From IMG/VR virus record IMGVR_UViG_3300044568_000907, positions 1 through 28,021 of that record: a stretch of DNA of 28,021 nucleotides; one strand, written 5' to 3'. The position numbers were made by a program, and so were the translations under genes. The notes under the pieces were generated by a model, which was given only the letters and a program-made list of their open reading frames with translations, was not told the origin of the DNA and did not search any database. This document shows, in pieces, positions 10,907 to 23,994 of this stretch; the stretch's first letter is position 1; every line of letters begins with the position of its first letter. This DNA is from a virus.

Positions 10907-10937
10907 AAACCAACCCCCGTATTCTGAGGGTTGGTTT
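10907..10937 (-). terminator. Perfect 10-bp inverted repeat after the capsid/small head genes (weak terminator or processing hairpin)
   Basis: Bases 10907-10916 (AAACCAACCC) and 10928-10937 (GGGTTGGTTT) are exact inverted repeats with an 11-base loop. On the minus strand the stem is followed by ACGTTC rather than a long U run. Full termination is therefore doubtful; partial read-through or RNA processing is as likely. T7 places its late terminator at the equivalent spot, between the capsid gene and gene 11. Confidence 0.65.
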
Positions 10938-10949
10938 ATTGGAAGATAC

Positions 10950-11225
10950 TTAGTCAGTATCTGTTGCGCTTACAGTGGTTCCGTCTGCAATATCAACCAC
11001 GCCAGCAGTCGATACAGCGTTGACATAGGTCAACACAAGTGACGGCGTTGTGGTGTCATATACAAACAGAACATCACCGACATTCAGTAGCTGGTAAACG
11101 CTATTGAAGTAGCCAGCAGTATTAACTGTAGCTTGCGTATCAGCAGTTTTGTAGATGTACATAGAAGGAGCATTACCTGCCTTTGATGTACTAACTGCGT
11201 TAAAACCAGTGGAGGAAAAAGCCAT
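10950..11225 (-). CDS. Small capsid-associated (decoration-type) protein
   Basis: This 91-residue protein starts MAFSSTGFNAVSTSKAGNAP and contains IYKTADTQATVNTAGYFNSV, then short beta-type stretches and an acidic end. Small proteins with this A-T-V-x-T-A-G-Y-F-N core are common immediately after podovirus and other phage capsid genes and are usually listed as hypothetical head or decoration proteins. A classic AAAAGGAGATATA site precedes its ATG. It lies 14 bases after the capsid gene and before a strong hairpin, so it is probably expressed at high level with the capsid. Family resemblance is good; binding to the capsid surface is inferred. Confidence 0.75.
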   Translation of the reverse strand: MAFSSTGFNAVSTSKAGNAPSMYIYKTADTQATVNTAGYFNSVYQLLNVGDVLFVYDTTTPSLVLTYVNAVSTAGVVDIADGTTVSATDTD

Positions 11226-11239
11226 GTTATATCTCCTTT

Positions 11240-12082
11240 TTAGGATTCGCGAGCAACGATTGAAACAATACCTTCCGCATCAATCGTGATTGCACCGGCT
11301 GAAAATACAGTGTTCACGAGGAACGATGTCTTTTCTGGGATGTAATTGATTTCTGTGCGAGGAGATATTCCTTCTGCGTACCCAACTGAATCGCGGTGGA
11401 ATGCGAAACAAGTACGGTCCAGTGAGCTATCAACAACCAAACCACCTTCGGTACGGTCGCCAAGAACATGAAACTGGAAGCCAAGGTATGTGTTCAGCTC
11501 ACCAGAGACAAGCGCTTTGACTGTATTAAAGTCGGAGCTGGTCACTGACGTTTCTGACAACAAAGATGCCAAGCCATTTGCATGGATAATAATGTTGCGA
11601 CCTTCTGGGGGGACGTTGCTCTTGTCCAGAAGTTTCTTAGCTTCGCGCAACTTGGCCATGTTCATATTGGTATCAGAACCGCCGATATCGTTACTAACAG
11701 TCAAAGCTGTGCTAGATGCTGCTAGAGCATCAAGGATCAGTTGGTCTTGACGGCGGCCAATTGCATTAGCAAGAACTTGTGCCAACTCTTGACGCTCATC
11801 AAAGTTAACTTTAGTTTGGTTGAAAATGTCGCTGTATTCAGCAGCATTCCAATCAGCCAATGTGCAAGTGATGGTAGAGAAAGCAACATTGAGTGGGGTT
11901 ACATCAGCCTGTGGAATACGAGGAGTTGCTACACCACGGCCAACCTTTGGAAACTTTACGGTAGATCCTTCGACACCACGGCGCTGACGTACAGCACTTA
12001 CCAATTGAGCCTTGCCTTGGTAAGCCTGTTTTACTTCAGCATCGAATAGGGTGACAAAGGCGTTAGATAGAGATACGCTCAT
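11240..12082 (-). CDS. Major capsid protein
   Basis: The 280-residue protein opens MSVSLSNAFVTLFDAEVKQA and continues with AQLVSAVRQRRGVEGSTVKF, ADWNAAEYSDIFNQTKVNFD, AIGRRQDQLILDAL and FAFHRDSVGYAEG. This is the recognisable series of the small HK97-fold capsid proteins of T7-like and Bordetella-phage-type podoviruses. It sits between scaffold and tail adaptor. The ATG has an AGGAG site, and its leader is long and highly structured (see 12107-12230). A terminator upstream separates it from the scaffold transcript. The length is normal for the family and no insertion is seen. Confidence 0.9.
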   Translation of the reverse strand: MSVSLSNAFVTLFDAEVKQAYQGKAQLVSAVRQRRGVEGSTVKFPKVGRGVATPRIPQADVTPLNVAFSTITCTLADWNAAEYSDIFNQTKVNFDERQELAQVLANAIGRRQDQLILDALAASSTALTVSNDIGGSDTNMNMAKLREAKKLLDKSNVPPEGRNIIIHANGLASLLSETSVTSSDFNTVKALVSGELNTYLGFQFHVLGDRTEGGLVVDSSLDRTCFAFHRDSVGYAEGISPRTEINYIPEKTSFLVNTVFSAGAITIDAEGIVSIVARES

Positions 12083-12086
12083 TTGT

Positions 12087-12100
12087 GTTCTCCTAAGAAC
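12087..12100 (-). promoter_or_regulatory. Capsid ribosome-binding site displayed in a hairpin loop
   Basis: On the minus strand the sequence GTTCT-TAGG-AGAAC forms a 5-bp stem with a TAGG loop, four bases before the capsid start region. The Shine-Dalgarno AGGAG spans the loop and the 3' side of the stem. Its accessibility could therefore depend on whether this hairpin forms. Confidence 0.5.
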
Positions 12101-12106
12101 AGGTTT

Positions 12107-12230
12107 AAAAAAAAGGGTTTCGCTATTGGTGTGCCGTAGGATTACGGGCCTGGCTTGCTGATTACGTCAGCCAATCGTCAAGGATACTTGAATTAAGGGC
12201 CGCAAATACGGTATGCCTTAGAACCCTTTT
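12107..12230 (-). ncRNA. Structured leader RNA upstream of the capsid gene (closed multi-branch junction ending in a U tract)
   Basis: On the minus strand, bases 12222-12230 (AAAAGGGTT in RNA sense) pair exactly with 12111-12119 (AACCCTTTT), enclosing four local hairpins. These are TAAGG/CCTTA (12216-12220 with 12194-12198, continued by CCG/CGG), TCAAG/CTTGA (12187-12191 with 12178-12182, loop of four), GCTGA/TCAGC (12167-12171 with 12157-12161) and CCGTA/TACGG (12143-12147 with 12134-12138, loop of four). An alternative TGGCT/AGCCA pairing competes with the third. The closing helix runs into eight U residues (12107-12114). No open frame of note is present. This could be a regulated leader, an attenuator with a very large loop, or the 3' end of a separate small RNA. 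It lacks a T-loop and is not a tRNA. Confidence 0.55.
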
Positions 12231-12254
12231 ACATTATTATTATTACATAGTCAA
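12226..12254 (-). promoter_or_regulatory. Candidate promoter for the capsid transcript
   Basis: On the minus strand TTGACT (12254-12249) is followed after 17 bases by TAAAAG (12231-12226), in an AT-rich stretch just past the scaffold terminator. The -10 match is only 4 of 6. If used, transcription would start near 12219, at the foot of the first leader hairpin. The placement is logical but the evidence is modest. Confidence 0.35.
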
Positions 12255-12274: not shown

Positions 12275-12298
12275 AAAAAAAAACCCGCCGAAGCGGGC
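12275..12298 (-). terminator. Rho-independent terminator after the scaffold gene
   Basis: On the minus strand GCCCGC-TTCG-GCGGGT forms a stem with a stable TTCG tetraloop (12298-12283) followed by an uninterrupted run of T (12283-12275). It lies 18 bases beyond the scaffold stop codon and would separate scaffold from capsid transcription. Confidence 0.9.
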
Positions 12299-12316: not shown

Positions 12317-13084
12317 TTAATTCTGGAATTGAGCTGCAAACATCTTCTCTACTTTAGCTCTGTATGAGACATCTGTCTTGTATCTAGGGTCAGAAACCAT
12401 CTGATACAGCTCATCTTTAGACGGGGCACCATCTATAGGGGCGCTATTCATTGGGATTCGACCTTCATAACTCTGCCTTAACTTCATCAGAGCCTTGATC
12501 CCGTTGGCTGTGCCACCCATAACCTTAAATTCATTAAAGTCATCCGGTCCCCAGACTCCCTTGTTAACTAGACCATTGGCCCAGTCTACCATACCCTTAA
12601 TGATGGCATCCGAATTAGCCCCTAAAGACTTCTTTTCTTCAGCTGCATTAAAGTTTGACACCTCTGCTTTAGAAGCGTTTAACTCAACAACCTTTCCTAC
12701 GAGGGAGTCTAGTGCGGCTTGGCTAACTCCATACTCTTTAGCCCAACCTTCGACGTGCTGACGGACTGGATCGGTATCTGGAACAGAGCCGAATGCAGCG
12801 TAATCGTAATTGCCATCTACAGGAGCCTTGTGCTTTCCTTGGCTAATCTGCTTACGTAGGTCTGTCCATGACTTGGCGATAGCCTCAAGATCTGGCTCCG
12901 CGTCTTCTTTCTTCCAGAAATTCTCAGGCCACCACGCTGGGCGATCTGCCGGAGTATCACTCTCCTCTGGAACTCTATGATCTATAGTAACTTCTTGTGG
13001 CGCTACAACGTCTGTTGGTGATGTAATTCCTGCCAGTAAGCCCTCACTATTCTCTGATTGGGGCTGGCTCTTGCTTTCTTCCAT
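12317..13084 (-). CDS. Capsid scaffolding protein (T7 gp9-like)
   Basis: This 255-residue protein is acidic and Gln/Glu/Ser-rich at the N-terminus. It has a central DRPAWWPENFWKKEDAEPDL block, a helical middle (QAALDSLVGKVVELNASKAE) and a short basic helical tail (YRAKVEKMFAAQFQN) of the kind that contacts capsid subunits. It lies directly upstream of the capsid gene. The P-x-W-x-P-E-x-F-W pattern is common in phage scaffold-like proteins. The ATG has a GGAG-type site. The function is inferred from position, composition and the basic C-terminal helix. A strong terminator follows it, so scaffold and capsid amounts can be set separately. Confidence 0.82.
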   Translation of the reverse strand: MEESKSQPQSENSEGLLAGITSPTDVVAPQEVTIDHRVPEESDTPADRPAWWPENFWKKEDAEPDLEAIAKSWTDLRKQISQGKHKAPVDGNYDYAAFGSVPDTDPVRQHVEGWAKEYGVSQAALDSLVGKVVELNASKAEVSNFNAAEEKKSLGANSDAIIKGMVDWANGLVNKGVWGPDDFNEFKVMGGTANGIKALMKLRQSYEGRIPMNSAPIDGAPSKDELYQMVSDPRYKTDVSYRAKVEKMFAAQFQN

Positions 13085-23072: not shown

Positions 23073-23994
23073 TGTTACCTCTAAACTGCATATGGTTCTC
23101 ATCCCAGACTGAAGCCTTCTCTGGTTCCAGCATATGGCCATCATGGAAAGTAACCACGATAAAGCCAGCAACCCAGTTCCTCGGATTATCCTCCATATAG
23201 CCAGCAAATTGCTCTCCGTAGGGGTTAGCTAGGGTACCGCCATCAACGCCGAACCTGGTGCCGTTGTAGTCAGTGAACGGGGTTACTTTGAGAGAGTGCA
23301 GGTGTCCAGTTACCACGCTCTTGCCAGACTTCAGGGTATTGTTGTAGACAGCGTGAATACCATTATGATATCTGTGCTTAATCACCAACTCATCATTGAC
23401 CCAAGCGCTCCAGCACTGGTTCCAGCGAGGGAAGTGATCCTTGAGGGCAAACCCTTTAATACCTTCATACTCAGGTGACTGGGCCGCTAACCGAGTCTCA
23501 AACCTAGCATCGTGGTTGCCCAGCTGCCAGTATAACTTAGCATTCTTGCCGGCATCCTCAACCATCTGGGAGAACTCTTGGCAGGCTTCCAGCTCCTCTT
23601 TGACAGTAGGTGACTTATCCCAGCCTATCCTTGGCCATCTACTGGCACGTGCCCCATCAAATATATCGCCATTGAAGTGTACGGCAACAGGTTGCAACTC
23701 TTTGACAAACTTAACAAAGCCACGCTGGGCGGTAGTTCTCTCGCCAGGCCAGACATGAGCATCTGATCCGATTATATGGATGCCATTAAGTGTATCAATC
23801 TTGATACGTCCTGGTGCTTCCGGCAAAACATATACCTTACCTGATATTGCCGACAACACGGTGCCAGTCCTGTTCTCGACTGACCTCCGCCTTGTATGTA
23901 CCGCCCTCTCAGACATCTGTAGTCTTTTGGATACAGCCTTTGCACCACCTAACTCACGCCATATATTGATAAAGTCTTCGTCAGATACAACCAT
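23059..23994 (-). CDS. Calcineurin-like metallophosphoesterase with N-terminal helix-turn-helix
   Basis: From the ATG at 23994 (AAGGGGG site, one-base overlap with the previous stop) the protein has 311 residues; nine extra residues in the longest frame are discounted. Residues ~4-40 look like a helix-turn-helix (DEDFINIWRELGGAKAVSKR then LQMSERAVHTRRR). The catalytic domain has GSDAHVW (76-82), FNGDIFDG (107-114), QLGNHDARFE (157-166), IKHRYHNG (~205-212) and VTGHLHS (~228-234), the full set of two-metal ligands. Substrates in phages range from DNA ends to nucleotides; none can be chosen here. The HTH-phosphoesterase order suggests a DNA-related target. Confidence 0.85.
   Translation of the reverse strand: MVVSDEDFINIWRELGGAKAVSKRLQMSERAVHTRRRSVENRTGTVLSAISGKVYVLPEAPGRIKIDTLNGIHIIGSDAHVWPGERTTAQRGFVKFVKELQPVAVHFNGDIFDGARASRWPRIGWDKSPTVKEELEACQEFSQMVEDAGKNAKLYWQLGNHDARFETRLAAQSPEYEGIKGFALKDHFPRWNQCWSAWVNDELVIKHRYHNGIHAVYNNTLKSGKSVVTGHLHSLKVTPFTDYNGTRFGVDGGTLANPYGEQFAGYMEDNPRNWVAGFIVVTFHDGHMLEPEKASVWDENHMQFRGNIIEV

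Follow-up and report, generated by a model that had tools for sequence, protein, structure and literature searches.

What is the structured RNA that lies on the minus strand in front of the major capsid gene of this phage, and what would it do there? The window (the whole stretch of DNA analysed, 28,021 nt, positions 1 to 28,021 of IMG/VR record IMGVR_UViG_3300044568_000907) is a marine phage contig in which the terminase (large subunit included), portal (head-tail connector), scaffold-position, capsid and tail genes all lie on the minus strand. Its nearest isolate by capsid is Methylophilales phage MEP301, to whose capsid protein that of the window is 79% identical. An initial annotation made from the letters had proposed a closed multibranch RNA in the capsid leader, and the sequence features that it named are present: a complementarity of 9 bp between 12222-12230 and 12111-12119, four small hairpins, and a U8 tract (12114-12107) 24 bases before the ATG at 12082. 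Table 1 lists the features discussed below.

Table 1. Features of the capsid unit in the window, and the HTVC010P-type leader in other records
Feature	Position	Strand	Remarks
Scaffold-position gene	12317-13084	minus	upstream of capsid gene
Intrinsic terminator, GCCCGCTTCGGCGGGT then T-run	12275..12298	minus	dG -10.7; 3' of scaffold-position gene
Sigma-70-type promoter, -35 TTGACT (12254-12249), 17-nt spacer, -10 TAAAAG (12231-12226)	12226..12254	minus	predicted +1 is A at 12219
Conserved leader RNA core, ~103 nt, predicted +1 to +103	12117..12219	minus	R1 match 12113-12222, 86.3 bits
P1: outer AAGG/CCUU, internal loop CAUA/C, inner CCGU/GCGG	12195..12219	minus	covariation
P2: CAAG UAUC CUUG	12179..12190	minus	99.7% paired; compensatory changes at 4/4 pairs
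P3: GCUGA CGUAA UCAGC	12157..12171	minus	covariation
P4: outer GG/CC, internal loop C/CACA, inner CCGUA/UACGG	12128..12150	minus	covariation
U8 tract between RNA and Shine-Dalgarno	12107..12114	minus	not part of a terminator
Shine-Dalgarno AGGAG	12090..12094	minus	read directly
Major capsid protein gene, 280 aa	11240..12082	minus	ATG at 12082; phrog_3437, E 1.1e-54
91-aa gene directly 3' of capsid gene, in capsid unit	10950..11225	minus	phrog_18004, unknown function
Stem-loop AAACCAACCC...GGGTTGGTTT	10907..10937	minus	between 91-aa gene and tail tubular A gene
HTVC010P-type leader	L203:5798-5895, L311-L399		before capsid gene; hairpin AGUCU/AGACU and second interrupted hairpin

Capsid relatives were taken from viral contigs, the stretch upstream of the capsid gene was aligned, and a structure of 24 pairs was read manually and counted on 57 distinct sequences. 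In these, 92.4% of the cells are paired and 18 pairs have changes on both sides; slid versions of the structure reach at most 43.1%, an excess that is partly due to the structure having come from the same 57 sequences; the fold is better supported by the compensatory changes. We built a covariance model (R1), which located the RNA in further contigs, and 123 distinct sequences were gathered. Among 99 distinct relatives, in an alignment that was fitted to R1 and so leans towards the model, 95.4% of the proposed cells are paired (slid controls at most 43%), with compensatory changes at 19 of the 24 pairs and the second P1 pair formed in 92 of the 99. The top nine covarying column pairs of this alignment (mutual information with average-product correction) are all proposed pairs. 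Columns 62-71 are C-G or A-U in 94 of 100 sequences, a covariation that largely tracks one split between two groups, and a tertiary contact between them is only suggested.

The comparison with related phages that had been proposed as a check thus found extensive compensatory change in the four hairpins, and the structured minus-strand RNA stands. The proposed geometry fell: pairing of the fifth, closing helix is not conserved. That 9-bp helix is specific to the window phage, its columns being paired in only 31% of the cells among relatives, and the longest helices that the two regions can form in relatives do not exceed those in shuffles (5.3 versus 5.1 bp). Its 5' arm (12222-12230) overlaps the -10 box and is part of the promoter; since it lies 5' of the predicted transcription start, it is probably untranscribed. 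As read from the alignment, four hairpins follow one another and no multibranch loop closes around them. When the closing helix is included, the fold of this region has z = -2.47; when folding begins at the inferred transcript start, z is -1.28 and the minimum-free-energy fold differs from the conserved one, so single-sequence thermodynamics is weak evidence here. Strand counts in the RNA alignment give 32 G-U against 45 A-C cells, with 26 of the A-C in one pair, and we argue the minus-strand assignment from the promoter and the gene direction.

The helix lengths are about 4 bp for P1 inner, 4-5 bp for P2, 5 bp for P3, and 2-3 bp (outer) and 4-5 bp (inner) for P4. One internal-loop motif is common to P1 and P4 in reversed topology, a strand G-C-N-N-A-pyrimidine opposite a single C, and its C, A and opposing C are invariant or nearly so in both hairpins. 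The P3 loop is CGNNA, with C, G and A near-invariant, and just 3' of the P3 stem stands an invariant AAG (AAGC is near-invariant there). Counting those in the linker before P3, near-invariant unpaired bases total roughly 20. The RNA lies about 24-41 nt from the capsid ATG in nearly all matches with enough downstream sequence; in one of the matches with a capsid gene downstream (L090), the capsid match begins inside the protein.

Between the scaffold-position and capsid genes there are, in order, an intrinsic terminator, a sigma-70-type promoter and the leader RNA. In all 57 relatives scored, 5-7 nt separate the end of the best -35/-10 pair from P1, and in 39 of them exactly 6 nt (11% of shuffles at spacing 6), with a mean promoter match of 8.3/12 in real versus 6.8 in shuffled sequences. 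By this spacing the predicted +1 falls on the first base of P1 or within one base of it, and few unpaired nucleotides would precede the first helix. A terminator is found 45-83 nt upstream of the RNA in 52 of 60 loci compared to 39 of 610 control windows, and that of the window sets the capsid unit apart from upstream transcription. At the other end, a stem-loop 3' of the gene (~92 aa) that comes after the capsid gene keeps its position in 16 of 16 genomes read while its sequence varies, and the tail tubular genes come next. According to the terminator scan, a strong U-tail on this stem-loop is present only in L292 and L293; in the window it may be a leaky terminator, a processing site or a 3' stabiliser. 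Taken together, the comparison establishes that a conserved structured leader heads an insulated capsid unit, and its identity as a 5'-terminal capsid leader RNA is nearly certain from the aligned sequences.

The RNA is kept in more than 100 related phages, as a single copy per genome found only before the capsid gene. Out of 32 longer records, 30 have a strong full-length R1 match and one a partial match at a contig end; the remaining one, retrieved solely by a 20-base pattern, is a non-member. The isolate MEP301 carries the RNA, unannotated, at 23628-23745 on the minus strand (93.9 bits), and R1 finds no match in SI2, HTVC010P and Vibrio phages. Weak extra matches (E 0.01-0.26), considered as second copies of the kind seen in put systems, look like chance. 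One contig end (L083:1-240) shows an inverted scaffold-capsid junction with a second RNA copy at 43 bits, probably an assembly chimera, and in L005:2862-2969 the RNA is fused straight to the end of the scaffold gene, with neither terminator nor promoter (a deletion or a chimera). A pattern search of host genomes gave two matches, L200, which is not a true match, and L201, a contig binned as Rhodoferax that has the RNA (1850-1959) and a phage capsid gene and hints at a host or a misbinned phage. With its covariation, single copy and constant place before the capsid gene, the RNA supports the earlier suggestion of a cis-acting structured capsid-leader RNA.

Among the covariance models of Rfam 15, none reaches its gathering score in the RNA region, and a search for tRNA or tmRNA found none. 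A search of open-access papers found no description of the RNA. These results agree with the annotation, which knew no named family of this layout, and support placing the leader outside any named family. A packaging RNA of the phi29 pRNA type was considered and rejected: there is no Rfam pRNA match, and the window has a terminase large subunit instead of a phi29-type packaging ATPase. The manA and wcaG RNAs of cyanophages are likewise conserved structured RNAs of marine phages and stand in potential 5' UTRs (PMC2864571), but they accompany metabolic and related genes, and no Rfam model matches the leader RNA.

Related clades have capsid leaders of their own, and neither of the two leaders described here was matched by Rfam. 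In SI2-type phages, whose capsid is ~51% identical to that of the window, a different conserved leader lies directly behind a promoter, and its 5'-terminal bases pair long-range with some covariation (4 pairs, 6 double-change cells among 20 sequences). In this leader (L205:912-1006, L211-L261) an AUC at columns 78-80 has two possible partners, the 5' GAU and a second GAU further on; the AUC and both GAU change together in a few sequences, like a two-state switch. HTVC010P-type SAR11 phages have a third leader, in which 15 pairs are 98.1% paired and 8 have double changes (35 sequences); no start site was located in these phages, a point against the 5'-end protection proposed below. A second leader class is present in over a dozen SAR11 phages in culture. 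Weak SorX/ar14 matches near a class II leader are positioned upstream of it and were set aside. In L222 (1875-2000), and also in L212, L213, L249 and L255, the capsid frame seemingly starts ~40 codons earlier with a hydrophobic segment (in L222 MHRKILSLIYTFLDVVAVYIITALVVLAKR, read by eye).

As for function, our best reading overall, a tentative one that stops short of being probable, is a cis-acting leader that would secure high capsid expression. Stabilisation of capsid mRNA, one of the roles suggested at the outset, is a viable reading, and we offer protection of the 5' end, with or without a partner, as a possible mechanism. P1 and the compact fold would leave about one or no unpaired nucleotide at the 5' end, and such a paired end should hinder both pyrophosphate removal and 5'-end-dependent RNase E entry. 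The U-rich spacer would then lead on to the Shine-Dalgarno sequence. On the far side, the conserved stem-loop behind the 91-aa gene would close off the capsid unit, with less read-through reaching the tail genes, as for T7 gene 10. We favour 5'-end protection because a helix stands at nucleotide 1 in two leader classes and because RppH and RNase E depend on a single-stranded 5' end (PMC3997798). Such protection is established in E. coli and could be extended to OM43 or related hosts by analogy only; MEP301 is without an RNA polymerase gene of its own (PMC8024684). Protection alone is probably insufficient, since the invariant loops and linkers, the doubled internal-loop motif and the conserved P3 loop are not needed for it. 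The roughly 20 near-invariant unpaired bases suggest a partner, perhaps a conserved host component, that would also recognise the fold via the invariant loops.

The same invariant bases would fit a conserved host target of another kind, a put-like processive antiterminator, in which the nascent RNA would fold on host RNA polymerase just after promoter escape so that the enzyme resists pausing and termination across the late operon of ~18 kb. The location fits, in that a structured RNA begins near the predicted +1 of a promoter of host type, much as putL is found just 3' of PL (PMC9378689), and so do the lack of a phage polymerase in MEP301 (PMC8024684) and the terminator-like stem-loop after the second unit gene, strong and U-tailed in L292 and L293. 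We nevertheless regard it as unlikely: most genomes show no strong intrinsic terminator for 10-19 kb downstream, there is one copy per genome here versus putL and putR in HK022, the RNA has ~100 nt and four hairpins versus ~70 nt and two in put, and the upstream terminator suggests that the preceding late genes manage without the RNA. Control by the capsid or another virion protein, which would bind the leader and tune capsid synthesis to assembly, could explain why the RNA is found solely before the capsid gene and why leader folds differ from one capsid clade to the next, a pattern to be expected from coevolution of RNA and capsid. The leader class could equally track host group, though, and the structure stops ~40 nt before the ATG, leaving the Shine-Dalgarno sequence uncovered; we judge such control quite unlikely.

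There is only a slim chance that the element is a translation enhancer offering the ribosome a U-rich standby site, with no role in RNA stability. The spacer 3' of the RNA is U-rich in most relatives (T run of at least 5 in 42 of 61), but the run length varies, the predicted openness of the Shine-Dalgarno region is just moderate (0.43, folded without constraint), and so elaborate a fold is not required for such a site. The two copies of the C-N-N-A motif opposite C, in P1 and P4, with their constant bases, could be imagined as the pockets of a riboswitch-like small-molecule sensor. This is very improbable, given that Rfam riboswitch models find no match in the RNA region even at E up to 5, that no alternative terminator or Shine-Dalgarno-blocking helix is seen, and that the gene controlled is structural, not metabolic. 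Least credible is that the U8 tract, which does come after the RNA in the window phage, marks the 3' end of a separate small RNA or an intrinsic attenuator, both of which the annotation had entertained. P4 ends 13 nt before U8 and no hairpin abuts it, the terminator scan finds none at the RNA or 3' of it, the U-tract varies in relatives, and the 9-bp closing helix is not conserved and would probably not be transcribed.

The arrangement recalls several known systems. HK022 put RNAs (putL, putR) are cis-acting structured phage RNAs near the start of transcripts made by host sigma-70 RNA polymerase; put RNA binds the zinc-binding domain of the polymerase beta' subunit and thereby suppresses termination. 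But they have ~70 nt and two stem-loops and serve early genes from two sites per genome, whereas the leader has ~103 nt and four hairpins and stands once, in a late capsid unit. Leaders of the E. coli ompA type likewise open the mRNA of an abundant protein with a 5'-terminal hairpin, as a 5' stabiliser; here, in contrast, the sequence of loops and linkers is conserved, and an internal-loop motif is common to two hairpins. In T7, the order is gene 9, phi10, gene 10, T-phi, gene 11, gene 12. The phi10/gene 10/T-phi unit resembles ours in its succession of scaffold gene, promoter, structured leader, capsid, terminator-like hairpin and tail tubular A and B; T7 differs in relying on its own polymerase and in having a short hairpin as leader, whereas the phages studied here have a promoter of host type and a large, conserved RNA.

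HTVC010P-related phages rank with the most abundant viruses of the sea, and we know of no account of how they control their late genes using host RNA polymerase only. A conserved RNA heading the capsid mRNA offers a concrete control element that is open to testing, and it exists in a cultured pair, MEP301 and Methylophilales FZCC2181. The leaders may further form a superclass, with at least three different capsid-leader folds in the same place in three HTVC010P-related clades acting on a conserved host machine or on the capsid, a proposal that we consider somewhat doubtful; the targets may be RNA polymerase, the ribosome, decay enzymes or the capsid itself. If it is true, some of the commonest phages in the ocean would have their coat gene under RNA control.
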